A stretch of 64,000 bases of DNA from Nitrospiraceae bacterium (lineage in GTDB: Bacteria; Nitrospirota; Nitrospiria; Nitrospirales; UBA2166). The notes below the pieces were generated by a model that did not search any database, was not told where the DNA came from, and was given only the letters and a program-made list of their open reading frames with translations. The stretch covers positions 1 to 64,000 of the forward strand of contig PBSN01000008.1 of NCBI GenBank assembly GCA_002726235.1, written 5' to 3'. Positions 40,813 through 59,816 of this stretch are shown in pieces (the stretch's first letter is position 1; each line of letters starts with the position of its first letter). The position numbers and the translations under genes are program-made.

Positions 40813-43008
40813 GTGAGTGTCCTAGCATTAGAATGTGATCGTATTGAGGACGTGATTGGCCGAGTCCTCGCGTATCATCCGACCGCCGATGTCGATCTTC
40901 TTCAACGTGCCTATGACTTTTCTGCACGAGCACATGAGGGGCAACAGCGTCTCTCAGGTGAACCATATCTCAAGCATCCGCTTGCGGTTGCGTCGGTCCT
41001 CTGCGCACTACGACTCGATGTTCCACCTATTGCTGCTGGGCTTCTTCATGATGTGGTTGAAGATACGGTTTGCACCTTCGAGTGTCTTGAGAATGAATTT
41101 GGTGAAGAAATTGCTCGTTTGGTTGACGGGGTCACCAAGATTGGAAAAGTCGAATTTAAGAGTGATGAAGAAAAACAAGCTGAGAATTTTAGGAAGATGC
41201 TTCTGTCGATGGCCGATGATATTCGAGTCATTATCATTAAGCTTGCCGACCGCCTTCACAATATGCAAACACTCAACCATCTACACCCAACACGTAAGGC
41301 AGAAATTGTCCGTGAGACGCTAGAGATTTATGCCCCGTTGGCGAATCGTCTTGGGATTGGGTGGATAAAAAATTCACTGGAAGATTTGTGCCTCAAGTCG
41401 TTGTGGCCAGAGAAATATGAAATGCTTAGCAAGAAGGTGGCCAAACGGATTCAAGAGCGAGAAGCCTATGTCGATGAGGTTACGGAATTTGTCAGTCAAA
41501 AGCTTCTGGAGCAAGGGATCAAAGCAGATATCACAGGTCGACCAAAGCATCTTTATAGCATTTACCAGAAGATGGAGACGCAAGGGATTTTATTCGAGGA
41601 AGTATACGATTTGACCGCTATCCGTGTGACTACCGACACTCTGATTAATTGTTATGGCATCTTAGGGATTGTTCACTCACTGTGGCGGCCAGTTCCTGGT
41701 CGATTTAAGGATTATATTGGTGTCCCCAAGTCTAATCTCTATCAATCTCTCCATACCACGGTGGCAGGACCGAGTGGAGAGCATGTGGAGTTTCAGATTC
41801 GTACTGAGGCAATGCATCGTGTTGCGGAAGAAGGGATCGCTGCCCACTGGCGATATAAGGACAAAGGTAAAGTTAATACAAATGACGAAAAGATCTTTAC
41901 GTGGTTGCGCCAATTGGTGGAATGGCACCGTGATCTTTCGGACAATCGCCAGTTTATGAATTCAGTCAAACTTGGTCTGTATGCCGATGTGATTTATGTC
42001 TTTACGCCTGAAGGTGCTGTCAAAGAGCTTCCCGCAGGTGCAACGTCAATCGATTTTGCCTATGCGGTTCATACCGAGGTCGGTCACCATTATTTTGGTG
42101 CGAAGGTAAACGGAAAGATCGTGCCGCCGTCCACGACGTTACATAGTGGTGATTCAGTGGAAATTCTAACTTCCACGACGAGTGTTCCAAGTAAGGATTG
42201 GTTGAAGTTTGTCCAAACCCCATCGGCTAAAACGAAGATAAAACACTGGATTCGTGATGCAGAGCGAGTGCGCAACGTTGCCCTTGGGAAGAAACTGGTT
42301 GAAAAAGAAATGCGTCGGCAAGGTATGACGCATCGCGAATTGATAGAAATTCAGGAATTTTCTGTCCTCGCAAAACACATTGGGTTCCAGTCTACAGAGG
42401 AACTGCTAGGAGCTGTCAGCGTAGGAAAGGTTTCTGTTTCGCAAGTTGTAAAATGGATGATGGATAAGTTGAAAGGGGGGACTGGTGTCGATGATGGTGA
42501 ACTCTTGCCGCATGATCGAAGCGTCAAGGTTCGAGGTGCGAGTGGGCTTCTATTTCACTTTTCGCGTTGCTGTAATCCTGTTCCCGGAGATCATATATTT
42601 GGATTTATAACCCGTGGACGTGGAATTTCAATTCACGCCTCATGGTGTCATAACTTAGATATTTTAGAATGCCATAAAGAGCGGTTTGTGGATGCGGAAT
42701 GGGATGTTTTGTGTGATCGCACCCACCGAGCGGGCATCTCCGTCTTGACGGTGAATCGACCGGGCCTTTTGGCCAGCGTGTCCTCTACCATTACAGCGGG
42801 GAATGTCAATATTACTTCTGCTGATATCGCAGAGACCCATGATGCGAAGGCTGCACAGAATTTCGTCGTTGAGGTGCGGCATGCGTCTCAGTTGGAGCTA
42901 GTGATTAAAAGTGTTGCGGAACTTGAGGGCGTGTTTTACGCGAAACGCGTCCCAGTCCGTCCCTTTGGCTCTCATCGATTTCGACGTTCCCTTCCTCCCA
43001 AGTCGTAA
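40813..43008 (+). CDS. bifunctional (p)ppGpp synthetase/hydrolase (Rel/SpoT type)
   Basis: 731-residue long RSH protein. The HD hydrolase domain is intact (H55; H79-D80 in GLLHDVVEDT), and the synthetase domain follows with GRPKHLYSIYQKM and PGRFKDYIGVPK, where the RFKD charge pattern marks bifunctional Rel rather than RelA (EFDD). Then come TGS (YVFTPEGAVKELPAGAT), zinc-finger/helical and C-terminal ACT domains (AGISVLTVNRPGLL). It makes and destroys the stringent-response alarmone. GTG start at 40813, 39 bp after recJ. This is the form expected of a single-RSH organism. Confidence 0.95.
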   Translation: MSVLALECDRIEDVIGRVLAYHPTADVDLLQRAYDFSARAHEGQQRLSGEPYLKHPLAVASVLCALRLDVPPIAAGLLHDVVEDTVCTFECLENEFGEEIARLVDGVTKIGKVEFKSDEEKQAENFRKMLLSMADDIRVIIIKLADRLHNMQTLNHLHPTRKAEIVRETLEIYAPLANRLGIGWIKNSLEDLCLKSLWPEKYEMLSKKVAKRIQEREAYVDEVTEFVSQKLLEQGIKADITGRPKHLYSIYQKMETQGILFEEVYDLTAIRVTTDTLINCYGILGIVHSLWRPVPGRFKDYIGVPKSNLYQSLHTTVAGPSGEHVEFQIRTEAMHRVAEEGIAAHWRYKDKGKVNTNDEKIFTWLRQLVEWHRDLSDNRQFMNSVKLGLYADVIYVFTPEGAVKELPAGATSIDFAYAVHTEVGHHYFGAKVNGKIVPPSTTLHSGDSVEILTSTTSVPSKDWLKFVQTPSAKTKIKHWIRDAERVRNVALGKKLVEKEMRRQGMTHRELIEIQEFSVLAKHIGFQSTEELLGAVSVGKVSVSQVVKWMMDKLKGGTGVDDGELLPHDRSVKVRGASGLLFHFSRCCNPVPGDHIFGFITRGRGISIHASWCHNLDILECHKERFVDAEWDVLCDRTHRAGISVLTVNRPGLLASVSSTITAGNVNITSADIAETHDAKAAQNFVVEVRHASQLELVIKSVAELEGVFYAKRVPVRPFGSHRFRRSLPPKS

Positions 43009-43171
43009 CAAAAGTACCTTTCGCAGCCCCTCTAGCGTATTGGTTGGGGCATGGGATGCCGCGCCTTTCAGCTTACAGATGAGTTGGTGGCTACCGCAGT
43101 CTACTACTCGTATATTTGCAGGGTGTTCAGTGCTTTTTTTGAATCAGGCATGTATGTGTTGTGGAACCGTG

Positions 43172-43660
43172 ATGCAAAGAAGGCATTCAGATTCCCATGA
43201 CCGCGGCAAGTTGATCGTGGCGAGCAGAATTAGTGGATTCATCGTTCTAGTTCTATCGTTACTGCTATGTTTTGTTCCACCTGCGTTGGCCACGGTTTAT
43301 GCTCTTCATATCCAGGACGATGTAGATGGAGGGTTCCATGAGTCTCTGTATGTCATCGTTGTTGCTGAGGCCCCCGATGAGAATGTCGCACGGATGATGG
43401 CGTTTGTGATCCAAGAAGTAGTTCGGCGCCCTCTTCACCTCTATCGTGGTGATGACAGGGTCATGATTGTCCTCACTGGCCATCCCATTTCTTTAGCGGA
43501 TGCGGAGATTATTGGAAGAGATCTCAAGTATCTTGCCCTCTTTCAAGATACCCCATATCCCCGCTTTCACCCTGTTCAATCAATTGACTATTGTGATCAG
43601 ACTCGGCGTTGCCTTGATATCTCTGAATCCAATCAAGACCAGTCGAGGGCGGATATTTAG
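43172..43660 (+). CDS. small secreted protein of unknown function
   Basis: 162 residues from the ATG at 43172. A hydrophobic core of a signal peptide (FIVLVLSLLLCFVPPALA, residues 24-41) is followed by a mature domain of about 120 residues beginning TVYALHIQDDVDGG. The mature part is acidic, alpha/beta-like, with one Cys pair near the end (YCDQTRRC). No family is recognised. The frame is open back to 42911 inside rel, but that N-terminal stretch looks non-coding; ATG at 43154 or a GTG immediately before the signal core are alternative starts. It stands alone between rel and the dcw promoter. Confidence 0.55.
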   Translation: MQRRHSDSHDRGKLIVASRISGFIVLVLSLLLCFVPPALATVYALHIQDDVDGGFHESLYVIVVAEAPDENVARMMAFVIQEVVRRPLHLYRGDDRVMIVLTGHPISLADAEIIGRDLKYLALFQDTPYPRFHPVQSIDYCDQTRRCLDISESNQDQSRADI

Positions 43661-43832: not shown

Positions 43833-43859
43833 TTATCCACGCTGTGGGTAAAAGTGGTA
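43833..43859. promoter_or_regulatory. distal TGGxx repeat pair / DnaA-box-like palindrome
   Basis: TTATCCACGCTGTGGGTAA (43833-43851) is an inverted pair of DnaA-box-like 9-mers, each one mismatch from TTATCCACA. Overlapping it, TGGGT (43845-43849) and TGGTA (43855-43859) are spaced by 10 bp. The shared core GTGGxTAAAAGTGG recurs 151 bp downstream. Confidence 0.4.
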
Positions 43860-43957
43860 GCTAGTTGATGTAGTTCTTTAACCTGTGCCATAAAAGGCGA
43901 AATCAAGTAGTAGCGCAATATACCTGTAAGTACGCTATAAATTTGACAATTTTTAGT

Positions 43958-43985
43958 TTGACATCCATGGGTGGTGGCGTATACT
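43958..43985 (+). promoter_or_regulatory. near-consensus promoter of the dcw cluster
   Basis: TTGACA (43958-43963, perfect), a 16-bp spacer, then TATACT (43980-43985, five of six). Predicted start near 43992, about 75 nt before the rsmH start. An additional TTGACA lies at 43943. Confidence 0.65.
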
Positions 43986-43993
43986 TTACGAAA

Positions 43994-44020
43994 TGTGGAT
44001 AAAAGTGGGAGGTAATGGAT
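43994..44020. promoter_or_regulatory. proximal MraZ-box-like triple repeat overlapping a perfect DnaA box
   Basis: TGGAT (43996), TGGGA (44006) and TGGAT (44016) are three direct repeats at exact 10-bp spacing, the arrangement bound by MraZ (TGGGN-N5 repeats) upstream of dcw clusters. TGTGGATAA (43994-44002) is also the complement of the consensus DnaA box TTATCCACA. The site overlaps the predicted transcription start, so either protein would repress. Confidence 0.5.
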
Positions 44021-44066: not shown

Positions 44067-44981
44067 TTGAATTTGGAAAATAGAGAAAAGCACGTACCGG
44101 TTCTGAAGGATGAAGTTATTGAGTGCCTTAAAGTCGGTCGTGGTGGTGTCTATGTTGATGGAACGGTTGGTGCTGGTGGACATGCCGAGGCACTCCTTCG
44201 GGCTAGTGCGCCGAATGGAATTGTCATTGGGGTCGATCAAGATGACGACGCCATTAAAGTAGCCGAAGAGCGTCTAAAGGAATTTGGAACCCGTTTTCAG
44301 CTGATCCATGGAAATTTTGAGCAACTTGCTCAATGTGTTCAATCAGCTGGGATCGATGCGGTGAACGGAATTGTTTTGGATTTGGGAATCTCCTCGATGC
44401 AGCTTGATGATCCCGCAAGGGGATTTAGCTTTCAGTCTGAAGGTCCTTTGGATATGAGGATGGATCAGAGGATTTCTCGGATGGCATCCCACGTGATTAA
44501 CGATACTTCAGAAGTGGAACTTGCCAAAATCTTTGCTGAGTACGGGGAAGAACGATATGCACGACGCATTGCACGCGGTATCGTGCAACGCCGCGTTAAG
44601 CAGCCCATTCTCACGACGAGTGCACTTAAGGATATTATTCGGTTTTCTGTGCCTTCGCAGTATCGGTCTGGACGCCTGCATTGCGCCACTCGGGTGTTTC
44701 AGTCATTGCGTATTGCGGTGAATGGTGAGCTTGATGTGTTGTCTCGTGGTATCCAGCAAGCGGTTTTGCTTCTTTCCCCGGGCGGAAGGTTGGGTGTGAT
44801 TACCTTCCACTCTTTGGAAGATCGTATTGTAAAGCAGAGCTTTCTGGCCATGGCTCGGGCTGCGCAACCAACGGTTGTTCGGCTATTCAAAAAACCGATC
44901 TGTCCCTCGGAGAAAGAACGACGCGAGAACCGAAGATCGCGGAGTGCAAAATTTCGTGTAATTGAAAAGGTGGCGGTTTGA
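44067..44981 (+). CDS. rsmH: 16S rRNA (cytosine1402-N4)-methyltransferase RsmH
   Basis: 304-residue SAM-dependent methyltransferase (MraW). HVPVLKDEV near the start, the SAM motif DGTVGAGGHAE, LDLGISSMQLDDPARGFSF and GVITFHSLEDRIVK are all family hallmarks. The frame begins with TTG at 44067 and has no clear Shine-Dalgarno; a second TTG lies at 44073. It is the first gene of the dcw cluster, directly behind a strong promoter. It overlaps ftsL by 4 bp. Confidence 0.95.
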   Translation: MNLENREKHVPVLKDEVIECLKVGRGGVYVDGTVGAGGHAEALLRASAPNGIVIGVDQDDDAIKVAEERLKEFGTRFQLIHGNFEQLAQCVQSAGIDAVNGIVLDLGISSMQLDDPARGFSFQSEGPLDMRMDQRISRMASHVINDTSEVELAKIFAEYGEERYARRIARGIVQRRVKQPILTTSALKDIIRFSVPSQYRSGRLHCATRVFQSLRIAVNGELDVLSRGIQQAVLLLSPGGRLGVITFHSLEDRIVKQSFLAMARAAQPTVVRLFKKPICPSEKERRENRRSRSAKFRVIEKVAV

Positions 44982-45235
44982 AAGTCATCCTCGGCAGTGC
45001 ATTGCTTCTTTTTCTGATGTTATTTAGCGTCTGGGAAGATCAAGAGATAGTCAATCTGGGATATGCGACCGAAGAGATGAGACTTGCCAAAGCCCATCAA
45101 TACGAACGGCAACAGGCATTAATGGGGAAATACTATGGCCTCATTTCACTTGATCGCATTGAAAGACGTGCGATGACACAACTTGGGCTTGTACGGCCTC
45201 AGGCAGGTCAGGTTATTCTAATGTCCAAGCAATAG
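44978..45235 (+). CDS. ftsL: cell division protein FtsL
   Basis: 85-residue bitopic protein with one transmembrane helix at about 4-20 and a periplasmic coiled-coil-like helix (about 25-60), the architecture of FtsL, which joins FtsB and FtsQ in activating septal synthesis. TTG start overlaps the rsmH stop (TTGA). Sequence similarity in this family is low; the call leans on position between rsmH and ftsI. The end is RIERRAMTQLGLVRPQAGQV, a typical FtsL tail. Confidence 0.85.
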   Translation: MKVILGSALLLFLMLFSVWEDQEIVNLGYATEEMRLAKAHQYERQQALMGKYYGLISLDRIERRAMTQLGLVRPQAGQVILMSKQ

Positions 45236-45245
45236 GAGGGTGTTC

Positions 45246-46979
45246 ATGGAATCACCACGTGCCATCCAGCGAAAGAATGGCCGCTTCACCTTTTCTATGG
45301 TGTGTGTTGTGGTTGGGTTTTGTGTGCTTGCGTTTCGTCTTGTTGAATTGCAAGTCGTTGATTCTCCAGATCTTGCTCGCGAGGCGAAAGACCAACACCG
45401 AAAAATCCACTTGATCGAGCCTGGCCGTGGTACCATCTATGATCGTCGAGAGACTGTCTTGGCAATCAATAGCGATGTGCCATCGATCTTTGGCGATCCC
45501 CCACAATGTCTTAATCCTCGCGAGACAGCAGGAACTGTCGCGGCAGTGTTAGGGCTTGATGCCGATCATGTCGAGCAGAAGCTCCGTAGCCCTAAGTCAT
45601 TTGTCTGGATTAAGCGCCGTATTGATGATCACGCGGTCGAGGCGTTACGTCACATGTCGCTAGATGGAATTGGGGTGATCAGGGAACGGCAACGCGTTTA
45701 TCCCAATGGCGCTCTGCTTTCACATGTTCTCGGTTTTGCTGGTATTGATGGATATGGCCTTGAGGGGCTTGAATGGAAGTATGACCGATCCCTGCGTGGA
45801 AAACGCGGTCAGCTACTGATGGATCACGATGCGGTAGGACAGCCAATATTTTCTGAAGTTTTAGCAGAGCAACTTCCAGCGGTCGGTCACGATATCGTCT
45901 TGACAATTGACATGGGTCTTCAGTACATGGCGGAAAGCGCATTGGATGAGGCGATCGAGTCAACGCAGGCGAAAGGTGGAAACGTCATTGTGATGGATCC
46001 GTTTACGGGGGCCATCTTGGCCATGACTGGTCGGCCGACATTTAACCCCAACGCCGTTAGACAGTATCAGCCTGAGCAGTGGCGCAACCGGGTGGTCACG
46101 GATCCATATGAACCTGGTTCAACGTTTAAGATTGTGGCGGCCGCAGCGGCGTTGAATGAAGAAATATTTCGTTCTGATGACCGTCTGTTTGCTGAAGATG
46201 GTCATTATGACGTCGGGGGAACTGTTGTCCATGATATTCACTCTCGAGGGTGGATGACGTTTTCAGAGGTTATTGAACACTCGAGTAATATTGGAGCGAT
46301 AAAAATTGCACAGCGAGTAGGGGAGGAGACGTTTTCCGACTATCTCCACGCCTTTGGATTTGGGGAGAAGACCGGTGTAGATCTTAGTGGCGAAAGTTCC
46401 GGTATTTTGCGGCCACGAGATCGATGGAGTGGTCGTTCATTGGCGTCACTCGCTATTGGACATGAAGTGGCGGTGACGCCGTTGCAATTGATCACTGCAG
46501 CGGCGGCTGTGGCCAATGGAGGATCTTTGATGCGGCCATATGTGGTTGCTGAAGTCAGGGATGGAGACGGATATACCGTAATGCGAACGGAACCACATGT
46601 TCGGAAGAAGGTAATCAGCATTCAAGCCGCTGCCGAACTGACTGAAATTCTCAGCCGTGTAGTATCTCAAGGCACGGCAGGGATGGCAGCATTGCCTTCC
46701 CACGCAGTCGCAGGGAAAACTGGCACGGCTCAAAAAGCTGATCGGAAGCATGGAGGATATCTTAAAGATCAATACATAAGTTCGTTCTTTGGCTTCTTTC
46801 CTGCACGGTTTCCTCAGCTCATCATTCTTGTGGTTATCGATGAGCCGAAGACGGAGTTCTGGGGAGGAAAAGTAGCCGCCCCGGTGTTTCGGAAAATTGC
46901 GGAGCAGGCTGTGCCCTATCTCAATATTTTGCCTGATGTTCCTGGACGTGACATCGCTGCGCTACTTGTCGCAAGCTAG
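45246..46979 (+). CDS. ftsI: peptidoglycan transpeptidase FtsI (PBP3)
   Basis: 577-residue class B penicillin-binding protein for septal cross-linking. One N-terminal transmembrane helix is at about 15-35, then the pedestal domain (EPGRGTIYDRR). In the transpeptidase domain the active-site S292 is in GSTFK, the SxN motif at 346-348 (SSN) and KTGTA at about 491. AGGAGG lies 6 nt before the ATG at 45246, preferred over GTG at 45240. No PASTA domains, in line with a Gram-negative enzyme. Confidence 0.96.
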   Translation: MESPRAIQRKNGRFTFSMVCVVVGFCVLAFRLVELQVVDSPDLAREAKDQHRKIHLIEPGRGTIYDRRETVLAINSDVPSIFGDPPQCLNPRETAGTVAAVLGLDADHVEQKLRSPKSFVWIKRRIDDHAVEALRHMSLDGIGVIRERQRVYPNGALLSHVLGFAGIDGYGLEGLEWKYDRSLRGKRGQLLMDHDAVGQPIFSEVLAEQLPAVGHDIVLTIDMGLQYMAESALDEAIESTQAKGGNVIVMDPFTGAILAMTGRPTFNPNAVRQYQPEQWRNRVVTDPYEPGSTFKIVAAAAALNEEIFRSDDRLFAEDGHYDVGGTVVHDIHSRGWMTFSEVIEHSSNIGAIKIAQRVGEETFSDYLHAFGFGEKTGVDLSGESSGILRPRDRWSGRSLASLAIGHEVAVTPLQLITAAAAVANGGSLMRPYVVAEVRDGDGYTVMRTEPHVRKKVISIQAAAELTEILSRVVSQGTAGMAALPSHAVAGKTGTAQKADRKHGGYLKDQYISSFFGFFPARFPQLIILVVIDEPKTEFWGGKVAAPVFRKIAEQAVPYLNILPDVPGRDIAALLVAS

Positions 46980-47008
46980 CAGGGTGAGTGTAATCACGGG
47001 TATTCTCG

Positions 47009-48520
47009 ATGAGGCTGAATGTGTTGCTTGATGGAGTTGAATCGTTGGTTGTATCTGGGTCAATGAATCCTGATATTAGGGCGATTTGTGATGATTCGAG
47101 AGATGTGCAGCCGGGAAGTCTCTTTGTGGCCATTAAGGGCCTGCAATCAGACGGAAATTGTTTTCTGGCCGATGCCGTTTCTGCTGGGGCGGCGGCGGTC
47201 GCAAGTGATAAGTGCTTAGAGAATTTTGGTGGAGAGTTTCCAGACATTGCTGCTGTGCAGGTACGTGACTCCCGACATGCGCTCGGAATTCTTGCGCGCA
47301 ATTTTTATCGTGATCCGTCATCAATGTTAATGATGTGCGGGATCACTGGGACTAATGGGAAAACGACTGTTGGGCATCTTGTCAAATCCATTCTCGAGGC
47401 GGCAGGGAGAAAGTCCGGGCTGATTGGAACCGTTGGGTATGAAATTGGAGATGAACGACTCACCGCGTCACATACAACTCCGAGTGCAGCGGTCTTGCAA
47501 GGTCTTCTTGGCCAAATGGTGCAGCGGGGCGTGACGGAGGCAGTCATCGAAGTGACGTCTCATGCGTTGGCGCTTTCGCGTACATCCGGTTGTTTGTTTG
47601 ACATCGTGGTGTTCACAAATGTGACACGAGATCACTTTGATTTTCACGGCGATATTGAAACCTACTTCAATGTCAAGCTGAGACTGTTTTCATCGGAGTT
47701 GCTAAAACCTGTCACGGATTTCTCGGCCGTTCGAGCGTTCATCAATCTGGATGACCCCTACGGCGAACGAGTGCGTAGTGCATGTAGTGTTTTGGCGTGG
47801 GGCTATGCGATCGACTGTCATGCAGATATACGCGCTGATGATATCGTTATCGCGTTTGAAGGAACTTCGTTTACCGCTCAGACTCCCATGGGCAGCTTTG
47901 AGGTTCAGTCGGCGCTGCTGGGACGCCACAATGTCTATAACATTCTGGCTGCAATTGGCGTAGGGTTGAGTCGAGGATGTTCTATTGAGTCTATCCAAGA
48001 AGGTATTGCGTCGTTGCGATGTGTGCCTGGGCGTTTTGAGAAAATTGATGAAGGTCAAGGGTACGGGGTGGTGGTTGACTATGCCCATACGGATGATGCA
48101 CTGGATAAACTTTTGAATACGGCGCGTTCTTTAACTGCGGGGCGCCTTATTACCGTTTTTGGTTGTGGGGGCGATCGGGATCAAGGAAAGCGGTCTGCAA
48201 TGGGAAAAACTGCATCCACGTTGAGTGATCTCCTGATCGTTACTTCTGACAACCCTCGAACCGAAGATCCAAATCAGATTATCCGTGATGTGATGGATGG
48301 AATTGCGTCTTCGGAAACCTCCTCTGCGTATGAGGTTATTCCGGATCGTAAAGAAGCCATTGTAACAGCCGTCCGGTCAGCCCGCCCGGGTGATTTGGTG
48401 GTCATCGCTGGTAAGGGACATGAAGCTTACCAAATTGTTGGAGATCGTCGGTTGCATTTTGACGATCGCTGTGTTGTGCGAGAAGCCATCGTGAGTGGCC
48501 ATGGCCAGCTTCACAGTTGA
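47009..48520 (+). CDS. murE: UDP-MurNAc-L-Ala-D-Glu:meso-diaminopimelate ligase MurE
   Basis: 503-residue ATP-dependent ligase adding the third residue of the stem peptide. The P-loop is GTNGKTT at about 113-119, the carbamylated-lysine region follows, and the substrate-selecting motif DNPR (in TSDNPRTEDP) predicts meso-diaminopimelate, not lysine. KGHEAYQ is the C-terminal family motif. The start ATG at 47009 lies 29 bp after ftsI. The end overlaps murF. Confidence 0.96.
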   Translation: MRLNVLLDGVESLVVSGSMNPDIRAICDDSRDVQPGSLFVAIKGLQSDGNCFLADAVSAGAAAVASDKCLENFGGEFPDIAAVQVRDSRHALGILARNFYRDPSSMLMMCGITGTNGKTTVGHLVKSILEAAGRKSGLIGTVGYEIGDERLTASHTTPSAAVLQGLLGQMVQRGVTEAVIEVTSHALALSRTSGCLFDIVVFTNVTRDHFDFHGDIETYFNVKLRLFSSELLKPVTDFSAVRAFINLDDPYGERVRSACSVLAWGYAIDCHADIRADDIVIAFEGTSFTAQTPMGSFEVQSALLGRHNVYNILAAIGVGLSRGCSIESIQEGIASLRCVPGRFEKIDEGQGYGVVVDYAHTDDALDKLLNTARSLTAGRLITVFGCGGDRDQGKRSAMGKTASTLSDLLIVTSDNPRTEDPNQIIRDVMDGIASSETSSAYEVIPDRKEAIVTAVRSARPGDLVVIAGKGHEAYQIVGDRRLHFDDRCVVREAIVSGHGQLHS

Positions 48521-49946
48521 GGAGTTATTGCTAGCAACGGGAGGACATCTGTTGTCCGGCTCAAGATCAAGACGATCATCTCGTCTGAGCATTGATAGTC
48601 GGACAGCAAAACACGGCGAGTTTTTTGTAGCGATTAAGGGGCAGCGATTTGATGGACATGCGTTTGTTCCGAGCGCACTAAAAAAAGGGGTAATGGGTGC
48701 ACTAGTGCATGGTGACTATAGACCATCACTTGCGAGATTGAGACAACGATCTGCCCCGGTCTTGATTGGTGTCGATGATCCCGTTCGTGCGTTTCAGGAT
48801 CTCGCCGGGTTTCATCGGAGGCGCTTCGATATTCCTGTGATTGCCGTTTCAGGAAGTAATGGAAAAACAACAACAACGCAGATGATTGGGAGCATATTGC
48901 AAGAAGAGTTTCGTCTTCTGCAGACCAAAGAAAATTTGAACAATCATATTGGAGTGCCGCTGACGTTGTTGCGCTTGACTCGCCGACACCAGGCTGCTGT
49001 CCTCGAGATGGGGATTAATCAGTTTGGCGAGCTAACACGGTTGTGCGGGATCGCACGGCCAATGATTGGCGTACTGACGAATATTGGTCGAGCACACTTA
49101 TCTGGACTCAAGCATCTTGATGGAGTGGCGCGTGCAAAGGGGGAGCTTGTGGCATCACTTCCCGCAGACGGGTCAATAATACTAAATGCAGATGATCCTT
49201 ACTTTCCGTTCTTGAGTTCCATGGCGAAGGGTCGTGTCTCTTCGTTTGGTTTTGCGCCACACGCCGATATTCACATCATCTGGACGCGCTCACATCGATC
49301 ACATCTATGGACCTTTGCTTTGCGTCGGCCTGGGTACCGGCGGCCGGTTGTAGTGCGACTCCCCGTTCCTGGCGGGCATAATATCGCCAACGCTGCTGCT
49401 GCGTCAGCCGTGGGTTTTGTAATGGGAGTGAAGCCAATGTCAATCCGCAATGGACTTGCGCGGTTTCGTCCCATGGCAATGCGAACAGAGATCGTGCAGT
49501 GGAATAATGTGAAGATTCTCAATGATGCCTACAATGCAAATCCTTCGTCAATGTACGTTGCATTGGAGGCGCTGAGTCATATGCCTGGAAGAGGGAAGCG
49601 TATTGCTGTACTCGGAGATATGTTGGAACTTGGTCGTGCAGCCAAAACCGCTCATGAGGAAATCGGAGCTTTGGTCGCCAATTTTGGTGTAGATCATCTT
49701 ATTGTTTGTGGCTCCATGGGGGTGCATGTGGCTGCTGGTGCGGTCAAAGCAGGGATGTGTCGCGATCATGTTGAGGTTACGCGTGATGGCCCAAACACAG
49801 GCTATCCGATGCTTATTGCTTGCCTTACCGCGTGTCTTTCCCCTGGTGATATGGTGTTGGTGAAAGGATCGCGAGCCATGCGCATGGAACGCATTGTCGA
49901 GTGTTGGAAACAACAGTTCCCAATGGCGCGTACGAAAGCGAGATAA
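48501..49946 (+). CDS. murF: UDP-MurNAc-tripeptide:D-Ala-D-Ala ligase MurF
   Basis: 481-residue Mur ligase completing the UDP-MurNAc pentapeptide. VSGSNGKTTT is the P-loop, ENLNNHIGVPLTLL and LNDAYNANPSSM are MurF-specific, and LGDMLELG follows. ATG at 48501 is preferred over GTG two codons upstream; both overlap murE (20 bp from the ATG). Confidence 0.96.
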   Translation: MASFTVEELLLATGGHLLSGSRSRRSSRLSIDSRTAKHGEFFVAIKGQRFDGHAFVPSALKKGVMGALVHGDYRPSLARLRQRSAPVLIGVDDPVRAFQDLAGFHRRRFDIPVIAVSGSNGKTTTTQMIGSILQEEFRLLQTKENLNNHIGVPLTLLRLTRRHQAAVLEMGINQFGELTRLCGIARPMIGVLTNIGRAHLSGLKHLDGVARAKGELVASLPADGSIILNADDPYFPFLSSMAKGRVSSFGFAPHADIHIIWTRSHRSHLWTFALRRPGYRRPVVVRLPVPGGHNIANAAAASAVGFVMGVKPMSIRNGLARFRPMAMRTEIVQWNNVKILNDAYNANPSSMYVALEALSHMPGRGKRIAVLGDMLELGRAAKTAHEEIGALVANFGVDHLIVCGSMGVHVAAGAVKAGMCRDHVEVTRDGPNTGYPMLIACLTACLSPGDMVLVKGSRAMRMERIVECWKQQFPMARTKAR

Positions 49947-49955
49947 TACGATCCC

Positions 49956-51032
49956 ATGTTCTACCTTTTTTTATATCCCTGGGCTGACGAAGTTCCCCTC
50001 TTCAATGTATTTCGTTATCTTAGTTTCCGAACCATCTACGCGGTGGTGACCGCTTTTGTGATCGCGTTCGCATTTGCGCCAATTTTGACGAGACGTCTAC
50101 AAAGGCTTGGATTTACGGAATCTATCCGAGACGATGGACCGGAACGCCACATTGTGAAAAGCGGGACTCCAACGATGGGAGGAATTCTTATTGTCGGGGC
50201 TGTTGTGTGCTCGACGCTTCTATGGGCGGACCTTCGCAATCCGTATATTTGGCTAGCATTATTTACCATGATTGGGTTTGGGGCTTTAGGAATCCTCGAT
50301 GATTATCGTAAAGGTGGTCAGAGAGCGAATCACGAACTTACTATTATGCCAAAGCTCATGATCCAACTTCTCCTTGCAAGTGTGATTGGGATCGCCCTGT
50401 ACTTCCTGCCTGCATATTCCACGTCGCTGAATGTCCCGTTTTTCAAAACGTTTTCTCCCGACCTTGGGTGGTTCTATATTCCGTTTGCCATACTCGTAAT
50501 TGTTGGGGCGTCAAACGCGGTGAACCTGACTGATGGATTAGATGGGCTGGCTATTGGACCTGTTATGGTTGCAACGGTTGCCTATACCATCGTGGTCTAT
50601 GTTTCTGGACACGTGGGTTTCGCAGAATATCTACTGATCCCCTATGTTGAAGGGTCAGGGGAGTTGGCCGTTTTTACTGGTGCCATGTTTGGGGCAAGTC
50701 TGGCATTCCTGTGGTTCAATACCTATCCCGCGTCAATCTTCATGGGTGACGCAGGGTCGTTACCTCTAGGATCTGCGCTTGGTCTCGTCGCCATCGTAAG
50801 CAAGCACGAACTCTTGTTAATGCTGGTTGGAGGTGTGTTTGTCATTGAAGCTGTTTCAGTCATCTTTCAAGTCGCATCGTATAAGGCAAGAGGGAAGCGA
50901 ATGTTTCTGATGGCGCCTCTCCATCATCACTTTGAATTAAAAGGATGGGAAGAGCCAAAGATCGTTATTCGCTTATGGATTATTGCGATATTCTTTGCAT
51001 TGTTGAGTTTAAGCACACTGAAACTTCGCTAG
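49956..51032 (+). CDS. mraY: phospho-N-acetylmuramoyl-pentapeptide transferase MraY
   Basis: 358-residue polytopic enzyme (about 10 helices) making lipid I on the inner membrane. The magnesium-binding aspartates are in LGILDDYRKG, NLTDGLDGLA and FMGDAGSLPLG; the HHHFE motif is in APLHHHFELKGW. Complete and of standard length. It starts 9 bp after murF and ends 7 bp before murD. Confidence 0.97.
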   Translation: MFYLFLYPWADEVPLFNVFRYLSFRTIYAVVTAFVIAFAFAPILTRRLQRLGFTESIRDDGPERHIVKSGTPTMGGILIVGAVVCSTLLWADLRNPYIWLALFTMIGFGALGILDDYRKGGQRANHELTIMPKLMIQLLLASVIGIALYFLPAYSTSLNVPFFKTFSPDLGWFYIPFAILVIVGASNAVNLTDGLDGLAIGPVMVATVAYTIVVYVSGHVGFAEYLLIPYVEGSGELAVFTGAMFGASLAFLWFNTYPASIFMGDAGSLPLGSALGLVAIVSKHELLLMLVGGVFVIEAVSVIFQVASYKARGKRMFLMAPLHHHFELKGWEEPKIVIRLWIIAIFFALLSLSTLKLR

Positions 51033-51039
51033 GCGAGAC

Positions 51040-52443
51040 ATGAAAACCGTTGTACCGAATGTTGAGTCAGAACTTAAGGGAAAGCACGTCACTGTGGTTG
51101 GCCTCGCGCGCAGTGGGCGTAAGGCAATTGAATTACTCACGTGGCTTGGTGCGCTTGTGACGGCCGTGGACGTGAAGCCTCGTTCCGCGATGGGAGAAAT
51201 CGTAGATCAGCTTGTGGACCAAGGGATCCCGGTCTACTTTGGAGGGGAGAATCACTCAGCACTTACTACTGCGGATCTTATTGTCATTAGTCCCGGAGTT
51301 CCTCTAGTAGAGAAATCGCTTGACGATGCGCGTCGCGCGGGGATTCCAATCATTGCTGAAATCGAACTCGCATTTCCGTATCTCCAAGGGCGGCTTGTCG
51401 GGGTGACCGGAACCAACGGAAAAAGTACGACCGTGACGATGGCGGGGACAATGTTGGAACAGGCGGGTATTTCAGTGCGGATGGGTGGAAACCTCGGAAC
51501 GCCTCTGTCTCAGATCGCATTGGATTGTTTGCGCGGAAACAACCAATCAGTCAAATATATTATTGCCGAACTTTCAAGTTTTCAACTTGAAGCAATCAAC
51601 ATGTTTGCCCCGTGGCTTGCGGTGGTTTTGAACATTACGAATGATCACATGGATCGATACTCGACGTTTGATGACTATGTCATGGCCAAGGCGAGAATAT
51701 TTCGGCGTCAAAGACAAGGGGATTACGGATTACTCAATCAAGATGATTCCGTTGTGAAAAAGTTGGCTTCCGTTGTCCTTTCCTCCCTAATGACGTTTAG
51801 TCACCGGCACGCTGTAGATTCTGGGATGTACGTTGAGCGAGGTTGGTTTATGTGGCGTATCAACAATCGCACGGTGGAGATCTGTCCTCTTTCCGAGTTG
51901 CGGCTTCAAGGAGCCCATAATGTTGATAATGCAATGGCCGCAGCGGCCATCGCATTGTTGTGTGGGTGCTCTGTGGACGTGGTTCGTCGGGTACTCCAAA
52001 CGTTCTCAGGACTTGAACATGCCTGCGAGTATGTGAGAGATCGTCATGGTGTCACCTTTATCAACGACTCCAAAGCGACAAATGTTGCCTCAACAATTGG
52101 AGCTCTCGAAAGTATTGGACGGCCGATTGTCTTGATCGCCGGAGGGCGTGACAAGGCTACTGATTTTTCTGAACTCGTACACGCTATTTCTCTGTACGTA
52201 AAATCGGTGATTCTGATTGGAGAATCTGGTCATAAGATTAAGGAAGCCCTTGAAGACGCTGATGTGAATGCGATTCCGATGTACTTCGAAGATTCATTGG
52301 AAATGGCGATTCAACTTGCAAGTCGTGAAGCTGATTCTGGTGATGTTGTGCTCTTTTCTCCAACATGCACCAGCTTTGACATGTTTCAGGATTATCAACA
52401 CCGTGGCAATCGATTCAAGGAGTGTGTTCATGCACTCTCGTGA
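51040..52443 (+). CDS. murD: UDP-MurNAc-L-alanine:D-glutamate ligase MurD
   Basis: 467-residue Mur ligase that adds D-glutamate. An N-terminal Rossmann-like domain (VVGLARSGRKAIELL) is followed by the P-loop VTGTNGKSTT, NITNDHMDRY, FINDSKATN and LIAGGRDK. Length is slightly above average. It overlaps ftsW by 14 bp. Confidence 0.96.
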   Translation: MKTVVPNVESELKGKHVTVVGLARSGRKAIELLTWLGALVTAVDVKPRSAMGEIVDQLVDQGIPVYFGGENHSALTTADLIVISPGVPLVEKSLDDARRAGIPIIAEIELAFPYLQGRLVGVTGTNGKSTTVTMAGTMLEQAGISVRMGGNLGTPLSQIALDCLRGNNQSVKYIIAELSSFQLEAINMFAPWLAVVLNITNDHMDRYSTFDDYVMAKARIFRRQRQGDYGLLNQDDSVVKKLASVVLSSLMTFSHRHAVDSGMYVERGWFMWRINNRTVEICPLSELRLQGAHNVDNAMAAAAIALLCGCSVDVVRRVLQTFSGLEHACEYVRDRHGVTFINDSKATNVASTIGALESIGRPIVLIAGGRDKATDFSELVHAISLYVKSVILIGESGHKIKEALEDADVNAIPMYFEDSLEMAIQLASREADSGDVVLFSPTCTSFDMFQDYQHRGNRFKECVHALS

Positions 52444-53605
52444 CGTTGAGGATCATCACGGGGTGCAGTCGCCGTTGTCGTGGTCGGCGTCATCAATGCG
52501 GCGTGACTCCTCAGGAGATCAGGTGCTCATTATCGTCACCCTACTGCTACTCGCCGTGGGAATTATGATGATGTACAGTTCAAGTGCTCTTCTTGCGCAA
52601 CGGACATATGACGATGCCGCGTTTTTTCTTAAGCGACAGTCAATGTGGATCGCTGTTGGGTTGATCCTGTTGTATGCCTTCTCTCGTTTTCAACACCAAT
52701 ATTGGAAAAATGTGATTGGGCCATTGCTAGGTGTCGGACTTGCCCTGCTTGCGGTTGTGCTGCTTTCGCCGCTTGGGGAGCCGATTAATGGTTCGCGTCG
52801 CTGGCTTCGACTGGGTGTGATGACAGTTCAACCCTCGGAATTTGTCAAGGTAATGCTGATTATTTATCTGGCGTGTTATCTCGCTGGGCGAGGAGAACGT
52901 ATCCGAAGCTTTGTTAGTGGGGCCCTTCCCGCAGTCCTCGTAGTCGGCGTATTTGTTGGCTTAATCGTGTGTGAGCCGGATCTTGGTACGGCAGTTGTTA
53001 TTCTAATCGTCACCGCTGGAATGCTTTTTATTGGCGGCGTTCCAGCCTGGCATCTTGCGGGATTGTCAACGGCTACGCTGGCCATGTGTGTGTATCGTGT
53101 TACGCAGACCGCCTATCAGCGACAGCGCGTATTGACATTTTTGAATCCAGGGGAGGACCCGCAGGGTTCTGGATATCAGACCATTCAGTCTATTCTTGCC
53201 ATCGGAAAAGGAGGTGTGTGGGGATCAGGATTAGGAGAATCAAGTCAAAAACGCCTCTTTCTTCCAGAACCTCATACCGATTTCATTTTTGCCGTTCTTT
53301 CCGAGGAGCTTGGGTTAATTGGAGGAATACTTCTCCTCGGGCTTTATGGGCTGCTGATCTGGAGAGGCTTTCGGATTTCGTGGAGGAGCTGGGGGAGCAA
53401 TGATCTCCTAGGGCACTACCTAGCGTACGGGATTGCGCTTCTGTTCGTGGTGCAGGTGTTAATCAATGTTGGTGTTGTATCCGGAATGCTTCCGGCAAAG
53501 GGATTGCCCCTTCCGTTATTGAGCTATGGGGGCTCTTCGATCGTCATGAACCTTGCCGCTATTGGAATACTGATCAGTATCTCGCGATCGCAGGAGCGTG
53601 TATGA
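52430..53605 (+). CDS. ftsW: septal peptidoglycan glycosyltransferase FtsW
   Basis: 391-residue SEDS-family polymerase with about 10 transmembrane helices, which works with FtsI at the septum. NGSRRWLRLGVMTVQPSEFVK, the catalytic-region EPDLGTA, HTDFIFAVLSEELG and LPLLSYGGSS are SEDS hallmarks. The frame is open far into murD, but the ATG at 52430 has AAGGAG at good spacing and gives a typical cytoplasmic N-terminus. It overlaps murG by ATGA. Confidence 0.96.
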   Translation: MHSRDVEDHHGVQSPLSWSASSMRRDSSGDQVLIIVTLLLLAVGIMMMYSSSALLAQRTYDDAAFFLKRQSMWIAVGLILLYAFSRFQHQYWKNVIGPLLGVGLALLAVVLLSPLGEPINGSRRWLRLGVMTVQPSEFVKVMLIIYLACYLAGRGERIRSFVSGALPAVLVVGVFVGLIVCEPDLGTAVVILIVTAGMLFIGGVPAWHLAGLSTATLAMCVYRVTQTAYQRQRVLTFLNPGEDPQGSGYQTIQSILAIGKGGVWGSGLGESSQKRLFLPEPHTDFIFAVLSEELGLIGGILLLGLYGLLIWRGFRISWRSWGSNDLLGHYLAYGIALLFVVQVLINVGVVSGMLPAKGLPLPLLSYGGSSIVMNLAAIGILISISRSQERV

Positions 53606-54708
53606 ACGTGTGCATTGCTGCAGGAGGCACTGGGGGCCATCTCTATCCCGGCATTGCGCTTGCACAAGAAATGATGCGTCAAGATGAAAAGAGCCAGATA
53701 CAATTTGTTGGTACGCCACGGGGACTTGAGGTACGTGTGTTGCCAGAGGTTGGGTTTGAATTGCGGTGCATTGCCGCGAGGGGGGTTATGGGAACATCCC
53801 CTATTAGGGCACTGGTTGCGCTTGCACAACTTCCATATGCGATAGGGCAATGTATTCGTCTTCTGCGGAAAAAGAAATCTGACTTGGTGATTGGCATTGG
53901 TGGGTATACCAGCCCGCCACTGTTTTTTGCAGCGCTTTACTTGGGGATTCCACGAGTGCTTGTTGAGCCTAACGTCATTCCAGGAATGGCAAACCGGGTA
54001 CTTTGCAGAATTGCCGATACTGTACTTCTGGCATTTGAAGAGACTAAGCGTTCTTTCCGGGGAGTTCCAACATACGTTGTCGGAGTGCCATTACGACGTG
54101 GGTTCAAACGATTTCAAGACACCAAAACGGTGGATAGATGGCATGGTGATCGACACACCATCTTGATATTTGGAGGGAGTCAAGGTTCACGAACACTCAA
54201 CCGGGTAGTCGTGCGTGCCGTATCATTCCTCAACACGAATCGAGCAGGTCTTCGCATTGTGCACCAGACGGGAGGGTCCGATTGCCTTTTTGTTCGCCAT
54301 GACTATGCGGAGAGACATCTTGACGCGACTGTTGTAACCTCGTTGGATGATATGGCCGCAGCTTATGCGGCGGCGGATGTTGTGATCAGTCGAGCTGGAG
54401 CAGGAACGATCGCGGAACTTACGGCGTGTGGAAAACCGGCTATTCTTATTCCGTTTCCTTCAGCCGCAGGTCAGCACCAGTTGCGCAACGCCGAGGTAAT
54501 GGTGAATGCCGGTGCCGCAGTATTGATAGAGGAAACTTGCTTAAGTGATCGATTACTTGCGGACACCATACAAACCCTTATCAGCGATACGGATCGCCTT
54601 GCAAGGATGGCGCGATGCAGTGCGGAGTTGGCCAAGCATGATGCGACAGAGCAGAGCGTCAAGTTTTGCAGAGAATTAGTCGAGCAACCGTCACGACGGG
54701 CTGTCTGA
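53602..54708 (+). CDS. murG: UDP-GlcNAc:lipid I N-acetylglucosaminyltransferase MurG
   Basis: 368-residue GT-B enzyme making lipid II on the cytoplasmic face. GGTGGHLYPGIALAQE is at 8-23, GIGGYTSPP in the N-domain, and the C-domain has GGSQGS, SRAGAGTIAELTACGKPAILIP and the following QHQLRNAE for UDP-GlcNAc. It overlaps ftsW by 4 bp. Confidence 0.97.
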   Translation: MNVCIAAGGTGGHLYPGIALAQEMMRQDEKSQIQFVGTPRGLEVRVLPEVGFELRCIAARGVMGTSPIRALVALAQLPYAIGQCIRLLRKKKSDLVIGIGGYTSPPLFFAALYLGIPRVLVEPNVIPGMANRVLCRIADTVLLAFEETKRSFRGVPTYVVGVPLRRGFKRFQDTKTVDRWHGDRHTILIFGGSQGSRTLNRVVVRAVSFLNTNRAGLRIVHQTGGSDCLFVRHDYAERHLDATVVTSLDDMAAAYAAADVVISRAGAGTIAELTACGKPAILIPFPSAAGQHQLRNAEVMVNAGAAVLIEETCLSDRLLADTIQTLISDTDRLARMARCSAELAKHDATEQSVKFCRELVEQPSRRAV

Positions 54709-54733
54709 TCTTATAACGCACATTGGATGGGTG

Positions 54734-56101
54734 ATGTTCGGAAAAACACGGCACATACATTTTGTTGGAATAGGTGGATCTGGAATGAGCGGTATTGCGG
54801 AGGTCTTGATTGATTTAGGCTACGTGGTGACCGGTTCTGATGTTCGTGAATCGGTTACCACGAAGCATCTCCGTAATGTAGGCGCGACGGTGATGATTGG
54901 TCATGATGAGAAGAATATTGCGGGAGCCCAGGTGCTTGTTGCGTCGACCGCAGTGTCAGCGTTCAACCCTGAAGTTCGTGCTGCCGAAGGCAATAGGATC
55001 CCCGTTATTCCACGGGCGGAAATGCTGGCAGAGTTGATGCGTCTCAAGCAAGGCGTTGCGATTGCTGGTGCGCATGGGAAGACTACCACGACATCAATGA
55101 TTGCAGCGATTCTTTCTGATTCTCATCTTGATCCTACGATCGTCATTGGGGGTAGAGTTAATGCATTTGGTGGAGGTTCGCGGTCTGGTCAAGGCTCATT
55201 ACTGATTGCCGAAGCTGATGAAAGCGATGGAACATTTCTGAAGCTCTCCCCTTCAATCGTTGTGGTAACCAATATCGATCGGGAACATTTGGATTACTAT
55301 AAGAGTCTCGACAAGATTCTTGAATCTTTTTCACGGTTTGTCGAGAAGGTGCCCTTTTATGGCCTGGTCGTCTTGTGCGCGGACGACCCACTCCTTCGGT
55401 CACTGATCCCATCCTTGCACAAGCGCTGTGTCACCTATGGGATACAGCAACATGCTGATTTTGTGGCGTCAGAGGTGGAATTGGGGCCATGGAAATCCAC
55501 CTTTACTGTCCATGCTGAGCAACGGTTAGTCGGAAAATTTACAATCCCGCTTCCTGGGAGGCACTATGTCTTAAACGCCCTTGCCGCTATTGTGGTTAGC
55601 TTGGAACTTGATATTCCAGTGGAGCAAATCTCAGATGGCCTTGCAGGTTTTCGAGGAGTAGAACGTCGTTTTCAGTGTGTGGGAGAGAAATCCGGCGTGT
55701 TGGTGCTTGATGACTATGCTCATCATCCTACGGAAATTCGGGCCACCGTTGCTGCTGTGAAGGAAGGCTGGGGGAGGCGATTCATTGTCCTGTTTCAGCC
55801 GCATCGTTTTTCTAGAACTCGTGATCTGATGGATGACTTTGCGGTTTCCTTTGATGGCGTAGATGCGCTGTTTGTCACCGAGATATACCCGGCAGGAGAA
55901 GATCCTATCGATGGCGTAAACGGAACTCGGCTTGTTGAGCAGATTAAGAGAACAAATCTTTCTGCTGTGTCATTTGTTGCAGAATCAGAAGCCATGGTTG
56001 ATCAGGTTCTCCCGATGCTTCGTGAGGGAGATGTTGTCTTGACTATGGGGGCAGGGGATATCTGGAAAGTAGGACAAACCCTCATGGAAAGACTTCCTTG
56101 A
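54734..56101 (+). CDS. murC: UDP-N-acetylmuramate:L-alanine ligase MurC
   Basis: 455-residue Mur ligase adding the first amino acid. FVGIGGSGMSGIAEVL opens the Rossmann domain, GAHGKTTTTSM is the P-loop, EADESDGTFL and DDYAHHPTEI are MurC hallmarks. GTG at 54731 directly precedes the ATG and is an alternative start; TTGGATGG lies just upstream. It overlaps murB. Confidence 0.96.
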   Translation: MFGKTRHIHFVGIGGSGMSGIAEVLIDLGYVVTGSDVRESVTTKHLRNVGATVMIGHDEKNIAGAQVLVASTAVSAFNPEVRAAEGNRIPVIPRAEMLAELMRLKQGVAIAGAHGKTTTTSMIAAILSDSHLDPTIVIGGRVNAFGGGSRSGQGSLLIAEADESDGTFLKLSPSIVVVTNIDREHLDYYKSLDKILESFSRFVEKVPFYGLVVLCADDPLLRSLIPSLHKRCVTYGIQQHADFVASEVELGPWKSTFTVHAEQRLVGKFTIPLPGRHYVLNALAAIVVSLELDIPVEQISDGLAGFRGVERRFQCVGEKSGVLVLDDYAHHPTEIRATVAAVKEGWGRRFIVLFQPHRFSRTRDLMDDFAVSFDGVDALFVTEIYPAGEDPIDGVNGTRLVEQIKRTNLSAVSFVAESEAMVDQVLPMLREGDVVLTMGAGDIWKVGQTLMERLP

Positions 56102-57000
56102 TGCTCGCAGCGTCCATGGCTTCAGCGCTTAATACTCTTCAGGGAGAAGTTCGTGTCAACGAGCCAATGTGGCGTCATGTCTCGTTTCGTATTGGTGGGA
56201 ATGCAGATGCTCTGGTCATTCCGCACAATATAGAGGATTTGCAAGGTCTTGTCGTGCAGACTAGAAGGGCGAAGATTCCAATGACTGTCATCGGCGGAAC
56301 AAACCTTCTTGTCCGCGATGATGGCATCGAAGGCATTGTCGTCTCTTTGCATCAATTTCAGGAGATCCAGTATGAAGGGGGATCTCGTCTCTACGTTGGA
56401 GGTGGCGTGCGAATGCCGCATCTGCTTAATGTCGCGACGAAACACGGACATGGGGGATTTGAATTTGCGGCAGGAATTCCAGGAACGGTTGCTGGTTCTC
56501 TAGTGATGAATGCTGGAACAGCGCGAGGTGAAATGAAAGATGTTCTTCAGGCAATTCATTTACTTGATGCGGAAGGCCAGCTTCATGTGATTCAAGCTGA
56601 GGCACTGGAGTTTGGATATCGACGCTCTTCTTTTCCTCCTGGTATCGTGGTTGGAGCGTGGCTCAACGTCATACCGAGTTCGGTGAAGCAGCTTGCTCTG
56701 AGTATTAAGTCTGCATTACGTAAGCGGAAGCAAACTCAACCTCTCACACTTCCAAGTGCGGGATGTGTGTTCCGGAACCCACAAGGGGACTCTGCCGGGC
56801 GGCTTATCGAACACGCGGGTTTCAAGGGATGTCGTGTGGGGGATGCAGCTATCTCGACTGTACACGCAAATTTTGCGGTTAATGTTGGGTGTGCGATGGC
56901 ACGAGATGTGATTGCTCTGGTCGATCAGGTACGCACTGGTGTTAAGGAAAAGACGGGAACATTGCTTGACCTTGAATTAACTATTGTGGGCCGTGAATAA
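56101..57000 (+). CDS. murB: UDP-N-acetylenolpyruvoylglucosamine reductase MurB
   Basis: 299-residue FAD enzyme reducing the MurA product to UDP-MurNAc. The FAD-binding core has VIGGTNLLVRDDG and GFEFAAGIPGTVAGSLVMNAG. The proton-donor position, usually serine in SAGSVFKNP, is cysteine here (PSAGCVFRNP); some other bacteria have this and are active. It is of the short type II class without the E. coli Tyr loop. The start is ATG at 56101, or TTG at 56098, in overlap with murC. Confidence 0.95.
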   Translation: MLAASMASALNTLQGEVRVNEPMWRHVSFRIGGNADALVIPHNIEDLQGLVVQTRRAKIPMTVIGGTNLLVRDDGIEGIVVSLHQFQEIQYEGGSRLYVGGGVRMPHLLNVATKHGHGGFEFAAGIPGTVAGSLVMNAGTARGEMKDVLQAIHLLDAEGQLHVIQAEALEFGYRRSSFPPGIVVGAWLNVIPSSVKQLALSIKSALRKRKQTQPLTLPSAGCVFRNPQGDSAGRLIEHAGFKGCRVGDAAISTVHANFAVNVGCAMARDVIALVDQVRTGVKEKTGTLLDLELTIVGRE

Positions 57001-57011
57001 CCATAGTCACG

Positions 57012-57935
57012 ATGGAAGGAAAACACATTGGGGTATTGATGGGTGGACGGTCGGCGGAACGTGATATTTCCCTGAAGAGTGGAAAGGCCATTGCTGATTC
57101 ACTGATGCGGCAGGGATATCGGGTCACGTGTATCGATGCGAGTCCTAATGTTGGAGAAGAATTGCAGTGCAATCATATTGACGTGGCCTTTTTGGCTCTT
57201 CATGGTCCAGGCGGGGAGGACGGTGCAATTCAGGGGTTCTTGGAAGTGCTTGACCTCCCATATACTGGGTCAGGGATTGCGGCGAGTGCGGTGGGGATGA
57301 ATAAAGTCTTGACCAAGTTGATATTAAAAGCATCGAGCTTACCGACTCCGCCGAGTGTGCTTCTCACTGCGAGTGCTCTTTCATCCATGATGCGGAATAA
57401 AATATCACTCCCGTTTTCATTTCCGGCCGTAGTAAAGCCGGTTGCTCAGGGTTCATCGATTGGAGTGAGTGTCATGCACGGTGCGGGCGACGTCCAGGTT
57501 GCATATGAAACCGCTATGCAGTTTGGTCATCAGGTTCTGGTTGAACAATTCATTGACGGTGCAGAATTTACGGTTGGGATTATCGGTGAAACACCACTAC
57601 CGGTATTAGAAATTCTCTTGGCAAAAACGCTTTTCGATTTTGACACGAAATATGAAGTGAGCGCTACACCTCATGCTGTGCGCGCAACACTTTCTCCAAC
57701 TCGCACACATGAGATGCAGCAACTGGCACTTCAAGTACACCAAGACATTGGGTGTCGTGGTGTTTCGCGTGTAGATATTCGGGTTGATGACGCAGGCAAC
57801 CCCTTTGTTCTTGAAATCAATACGATTCCAGGGATGACCAATGAAAGCTTACTCCCATTAGCTGCGCGTGAAGCGGATATCCAATATGACTGTTTGGTCA
57901 AGAAAATGTTGTCTGCAACTGTGGGAGAACAATGA
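57012..57935 (+). CDS. ddl: D-alanine:D-alanine ligase
   Basis: 307-residue ATP-grasp ligase supplying D-Ala-D-Ala to MurF. GGRSAERDISL and LHGPGGEDGAIQGFLE are in the N-domain, VKPVAQGSSIGV binds ATP, and RVDIRVDDAGNPFVLEINTIPGMT carries the metal ligands. The SS in AQGSSIG and the YEVSATPHAV loop fit a Ddl forming D-Ala-D-Ala; D-lactate specificity is not suggested. It overlaps ftsQ by 4 bp. Confidence 0.96.
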   Translation: MEGKHIGVLMGGRSAERDISLKSGKAIADSLMRQGYRVTCIDASPNVGEELQCNHIDVAFLALHGPGGEDGAIQGFLEVLDLPYTGSGIAASAVGMNKVLTKLILKASSLPTPPSVLLTASALSSMMRNKISLPFSFPAVVKPVAQGSSIGVSVMHGAGDVQVAYETAMQFGHQVLVEQFIDGAEFTVGIIGETPLPVLEILLAKTLFDFDTKYEVSATPHAVRATLSPTRTHEMQQLALQVHQDIGCRGVSRVDIRVDDAGNPFVLEINTIPGMTNESLLPLAAREADIQYDCLVKKMLSATVGEQ

Positions 57936-58519
57936 ACGTTCGGATATGGAGTGAACAAAAATATCAAGAGCTGGGACGTCGTCCACGTGTCTTGATTGTG
58001 TTCATGGGTATGCTTTTGGTTATTCTCGGTACGACATATATTGGCTTGTTGCCGGGATGGTCGGCTGGGATAGACCGCGTGAGTATTTCGCAACCGTCGG
58101 TGTTGGTTGAGGCATCATATGCTTGGTTTTTGGTTGATGCGCATGGCATTGTCCGTGGGGCAATCGATCGCGATAGGCCTCAAATGCTGCCGAAGATTTC
58201 TGGGATCGACTCACGTGCATTGTTACGGCAGGAGTTTTCTGCAGTGGACGCAGCCCAAAACGGGTATGAATTGGCCACACTCCTGTTGGATAGTGATGAC
58301 CGTCAACTGCATGGGCGAGACCTACGGATTGACTTTTCTGATCCTCAAAATATTGTCGCGACGTTTCATGGCACGACGATTCATTTTGGAAGCAACGGCT
58401 TCCGGGAGAAATGGGACAGGGTCAGGCGCGTTCGTGGTGCGCGAACAGGTAGCCTTTCAGCAGGGCATGAATTGGACTTGCGTTTTCCAAACACTGTGAT
58501 TGTGCGTAAACCTCAATGA
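57932..58519 (+). CDS. ftsQ: short FtsQ/DivIB-like cell division protein, POTRA domain apparently missing
   Basis: 195 residues, shorter than the usual 240-290. A cytoplasmic N-terminus with RRPR is followed by one transmembrane helix at about 20-40. Only some 15 residues later the sequence enters what corresponds to the start of the FtsQ beta domain (AYAWFLVDAHGIV, then PKISGID; later LDLRFPNTVIVRK). The roughly 70-residue POTRA domain that normally sits between is not visible. Position between ddl and ftsA, ATGA overlaps with both, and the C-terminal match support FtsQ. FtsQ links FtsB/FtsL to the divisome. Confidence 0.8.
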   Translation: MNVRIWSEQKYQELGRRPRVLIVFMGMLLVILGTTYIGLLPGWSAGIDRVSISQPSVLVEASYAWFLVDAHGIVRGAIDRDRPQMLPKISGIDSRALLRQEFSAVDAAQNGYELATLLLDSDDRQLHGRDLRIDFSDPQNIVATFHGTTIHFGSNGFREKWDRVRRVRGARTGSLSAGHELDLRFPNTVIVRKPQ

Positions 58520-59772: not shown

Positions 59773-59816
59773 GATCGCAATGATCTGTGTAAGGCTGCAA
59801 CAATAGGGAGGCTACT

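Follow-up and report, generated by a model that had tools for sequence, protein, structure and literature searches.

The dcw gene cluster in the analyzed stretch of DNA (hereafter the window, 64,000 nucleotides of contig PBSN01000008.1 of a Nitrospiraceae bacterium) is preceded by direct repeats that very probably represent its operator, an MraZ box at which a distantly encoded MraZ would bind in trans and repress the promoter, the mraZ gene having left the operon and the operator having stayed. The closest named relatives, Nitrospiraceae bacterium UBA2166 and Nitrospirales bacterium UWMA-0026, place the window in the order Nitrospirales of the phylum Nitrospirota. The initial annotation had described a dcw cluster lacking mraZ. 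No mraZ precedes rsmH (mraW; 44067-44981, + strand; Pfam PF01795, E 1.3e-108), which heads the cluster, but the genome does encode this gene: the genome search proposed earlier revealed it on a separate contig, as a 146-aa protein with both MraZ domains (Pfam E 1e-27). The absence of mraZ from the genome was thereby rejected, and the puzzle of a box without mraZ was resolved because the gene is located elsewhere. Besides rsmH, the presumed target of the promoter is the remaining dcw cluster (44978-60980, + strand), delineated from open reading frames and including, in order, ftsL-like, ftsI, murE, murF, mraY, murD, ftsW, murG, murC, murB, ddl, ftsQ-like, ftsA, and ftsZ genes; names other than rsmH were assigned by reading the sequences. 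A further reading frame (42911-43660, + strand) lies between a relA/spoT-like gene and rsmH. The 162-aa part of it that was searched had a signal-like N terminus and no Pfam match; its relative precedes rsmH in one of the two other compared members of the genus (G003) and was not seen in the second (G001).

The rsmH promoter comprises a -35 element TTGACA (43958-43963, + strand) and a -10 element TATACT (43980-43985, + strand), both recognized by their conservation across Nitrospirales rsmH upstream regions. They are separated by 16 bp and match the consensus at 11 of 12 positions. About 10 bp past TATACT begins the array GTGGATAAAAGTGGGAGGTAATGG, a putative MraZ box consisting of three GTGG/ATGG direct repeats, GTGGATAAAA, GTGGGAGGTA, and ATGG (43995-44018, + strand), with an exact period of 10 bp. 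At least three GTGG-core direct repeats at this period are expected of an MraZ-controlled dcw promoter, and three are present, directly downstream of the -10 element and covering the start site, which is itself predicted. The three repeats reported over the start site in the initial annotation were found at the coordinates given there. The assignment as an MraZ box is based on conservation, on the occurrence of the motif before mraZ in sister orders, and on its frequency of about one per genome.

Alignment of this region across relatives, another of the proposed checks, covered the sequence upstream of rsmH in 137 Nitrospirales genomes, mostly drafts, that represent about 29 genera, and strongly supported the MraZ interpretation: the conserved feature of the 137 orthologous promoters is the MraZ-type repeats and their 10-bp periodicity. 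A TTGAC-16-TATA promoter was found in 133 of the 137 regions, with a spacer of 16 bp in 133/133, and the best array of three GTGG repeats at period 10 scored 11-12 of 12 in 119 of them, although same-genus genomes in these counts are not independent. The array started 7-11 bp past the -10 box in nearly all relatives, and arrays scoring at least 11/12 were never observed at periods of 8, 9, 11, or 12. Scores of at least 11/12 were reached by 0.3% of Markov-shuffled leaders versus 86% of the real ones, which indicates that the array is not a product of chance. In genus-averaged profiles, the information content of the GTGG letters is 1.5–2 bits per position, with A or G at the start of the third repeat, and it decreases to about 0–0.4 bit in the leader bases behind the array.

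This near-complete conservation of letters over some 29 genera, in a leader otherwise free to vary, together with the identical motif before mraZ in sister orders, makes a relic, or a site for some protein different from MraZ, a very unlikely explanation of the repeats. What speaks for such a possibility is that MraZ binding is deduced from the motif and that the boxes have decayed in some genomes. Weak boxes occurred despite the presence of mraZ in G015, G018, G039, G048, and part of genus g13 (here and below, labels of genera, g, and of families, f1–f4, follow the naming of the search tool), and they also count against repression by MraZ, the preferred explanation. Variant arrangements of the box were seen as well. 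In genus g13 (G029, G042, and G052) the third repeat is inverted, GTGGG..GTGGG..TTTCCACAT, and in the rsmH promoters of G015 and G322 the middle repeat reads AAATCCCA.

The mraZ gene was found in 56 of 57 relatives. In G259 (a genome 95% complete), no mraZ was found and the box is kept, which is a further point against the preferred explanation. Within 500 bp before rsmH, no MraZ reading frame was detected in the 137 genomes, the only hit being one antisense chance match, and in seven one-contig Nitrospirales genomes the distance between mraZ and rsmH is 137–356 kb. Outside the order, mraZ is directly before rsmH in 20 of 20 genomes sampled elsewhere in the class (other orders) and in the phylum (other families), and the box precedes mraZ in 19 of them; the contig of the 20th (L149) contains just the end of mraZ. 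The supposed lack of rsmH after mraZ in two outgroups was rejected, as the gene is present with a variant motif. The mraZ-rsmH operons of other Nitrospirota thus have the same type of promoter and GTGG repeats, with the box before mraZ and rsmH directly after it, while in Nitrospirales the box stands before rsmH. The simplest history starts from an ancestor with the order promoter-box-mraZ-rsmH; in Nitrospirales, mraZ would then have come to lie elsewhere, with the promoter and the box left before rsmH.

In another history, which leaves the regulatory mechanism the same, the present mraZ would be a distant homolog that arrived by horizontal transfer, replaced the lost original gene, and took control of its operator. 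In the phylogenetic tree, the Nitrospirales MraZ form one clade (support 100/100) with a very long stem of 1.57 changes per site, which does not nest among class-mates. However, placement with the class-mates was not rejected (p-AU 0.16), and fast divergence following relocation would give the same look, so xenologous replacement is possible but the less likely of these histories. The strong divergence of Nitrospirales MraZ is also an argument against the preferred explanation.

None of the 56 relocated mraZ promoters has a box; their best scores, 6–9 of 12, are at the background level, so box-mediated self-repression of MraZ appears to be lost. The strict box motif was present in 39 of 57 genomes, once in each, and was located at rsmH in 35 of the 39, so that the MraZ regulon looks like a single operon. 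On the evidence of the strict motif, a wider box regulon was rejected, and permitting one mismatch gave chance-like numbers. The surroundings of the relocated gene differ between families. Family f2 and the majority of f3 carry a small excisionase-type HTH_17 gene (PF12728) directly before mraZ, for example at L108:313-510 (+ strand) in G049; it is a candidate co-regulator. In family f1, mraZ is preceded by a TTGACA promoter of its own, with an inverted repeat downstream of it. In the window genome (G000), this repeat, CCTCATGTGTTACATGAGG, lies between the mraZ promoter and the start of the gene (L001:1711-1790, - strand, contig C13); weaker forms occur in other members of the genus, and G001 has a matched change on both arms. 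It could possibly serve as an operator or form an RNA hairpin.

The MraZ site of Burkholderia cenocepacia covers the start site with four 7-nt repeats, spaced by 3 nt to give a period of 10, and, as in Escherichia coli, lies downstream of the -10 box; the protein itself is reported to form an octameric ring (PMC7761207). In Mollicutes, the direct repeats are AAAGTG[T/G], and Mycoplasma genitalium has a single site (PMC8475190). Like these systems, Nitrospirales have GTG(G)-core repeats of period 10 just past the -10 element, over the start and before the dcw cluster (PMC7761207, PMC8475190), and the box is likewise nearly unique in the genome. Unlike in these systems, where a self-repressing mraZ opens the operon, the gene here is located elsewhere and its own promoter is boxless. 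An mraZ gene at the head of the operon, absent from the window, characterizes the known examples, although binding does not depend on it.

Since the anatomy matches the B. cenocepacia site, with three repeats, the best interpretation is that MraZ occludes the promoter, and repression of dcw in trans at the start site is the most likely mechanism. MraZ produced from a gene far off on the chromosome would act in trans on the rsmH promoter. Its ring-shaped oligomer would cover the transcription start by binding the 10-bp-spaced GTGG repeats from one side of the helix, and would block the TTGACA/TATACT promoter, decreasing the expression of rsmH and the downstream division and wall genes. Transfer of mraZ to a position outside the operon would have taken place in the ancestor of Nitrospirales, with the operator remaining in place. 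With no box at the relocated gene, repression is presumably no longer self-limiting, and the level of MraZ may be set by other inputs. Action in trans is not a given, because mraZ of M. genitalium was complemented only from inside the division cluster, from which the authors concluded that repression requires linkage (PMC8475190), and this counts against the proposed mechanism. The conserved box and the unlinked mraZ of Nitrospirales imply that MraZ can act in trans in nature, unless another protein uses the box.

A second array in the window, the two-repeat half-array GTGGGTAAAAGTGG (43844-43857, + strand), lies exactly 151 bp before the main array, as reported in the initial annotation, and is a candidate auxiliary MraZ site. 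It could be a second operator that strengthens the proposed repression through DNA looping, in addition to the main box. This addition is tentative and rather doubtful: a similar half-array with the same core is found in G001, and it precedes the main array by 145-151 bp in the two genomes, but the spacing differs by 6 bp between them, there are two repeats only, and the array is missing from G003 and from almost every other genus.

The other possibility raised in the initial annotation was that DnaA links the expression of the division genes to replication. It would do so by binding the window promoter, either by itself or competing with MraZ where their sites overlap. The strings on which it was based are present. 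A perfect DnaA 9-mer, TTATCCACA, is located on the complement at 43994-44002 (forward strand TGTGGATAA), inside the MraZ box, and a near-perfect inverted pair at 43833-43851 is formed by TTATCCACG (43833-43841, + strand) and TTACCCACA (43843-43851, - strand), each with one mismatch to TTATCCACA. Two of these three matches near the promoter, one perfect and two with one mismatch, are made largely of MraZ-repeat letters. Within the genus, the perfect 9-mer occurs in G000 and G003 only, inside the array, and was rejected as a conserved feature since it is missing in G001; thus, the three members do not keep 9-mers independently of the MraZ letters. The inverted pair is kept in neither G001 nor G003. 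The numbers of such matches are close to chance, with 13 one-mismatch matches in the whole window versus 13.7 expected and 17 perfect 9-mers in the whole genome versus about 14 expected. The contig carrying dnaA has no perfect 9-mer, one-mismatch forms alone being found near dnaA. The perfect 9-mer at 43994-44002 is probably coincidental.

In other lineages, DnaA boxes sit upstream of the rsmH promoter rather than within the array. At least one perfect box was found in 17 of 18 genomes of genus g6, at -113/-124 (about 112–125 bp upstream of the -10 end), and several of these promoters contain the full inverted pair TTATCCACAAATGTGGATAA (for example, L016 of G051 and L072 of G008). Perfect boxes were also present in 3 of 3 rsmH promoters of family f2, at about -91 from the -10 end, and in 2 of 12 promoters of genus g14, while none was found in g3, the largest genus sampled. 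Overall, there are 14 perfect boxes before rsmH in 52 promoters versus 0.22 expected, an excess explained by the lineages that hold boxes at fixed places, although same-genus genomes are not independent in this count. DnaA is known to bind the ftsL operon promoter of Bacillus subtilis (PMC8203912; PMC11019786). The sites at this rsmH-ftsL operon promoter are comparable with those of g6 and f2, so DnaA input is plausible there; in contrast, the perfect 9-mer of the window falls within the MraZ array and is not kept throughout the genus. The DnaA alternative is therefore weak at the bases for which it was suggested, where DnaA control is unlikely, but it is plausible for other lineages with positionally conserved boxes upstream of the same promoter. 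A link between DnaA and dcw expression would be lineage-specific.

Beyond repression of dcw in trans, Nitrospirales MraZ may be a free, non-autoregulated repressor with new inputs, joined in some lineages with the upstream DnaA sites in a two-input switch between replication and division. Candidates for such inputs are the HTH_17 gene of f2 and f3 and the palindrome after the mraZ promoter of f1. We consider this extension speculative and rather improbable.

The cluster normally headed by mraZ is among the oldest conserved ones in bacteria, and to our knowledge, the persistence of mraZ as its first gene is not understood. No published description of the separation of mraZ from the operator in Nitrospirales was found in the literature searched, in which few subscription journals were covered. 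A whole order with unlinked mraZ and a near letter-for-letter conserved operator is a natural test of the claim that linkage is required (PMC8475190), as well as of the role of MraZ autoregulation. If the repeats act as proposed, Nitrospirales would provide a clear example of an operator remaining in place while the regulator gene sits elsewhere, and of the rewiring of a very old circuit.
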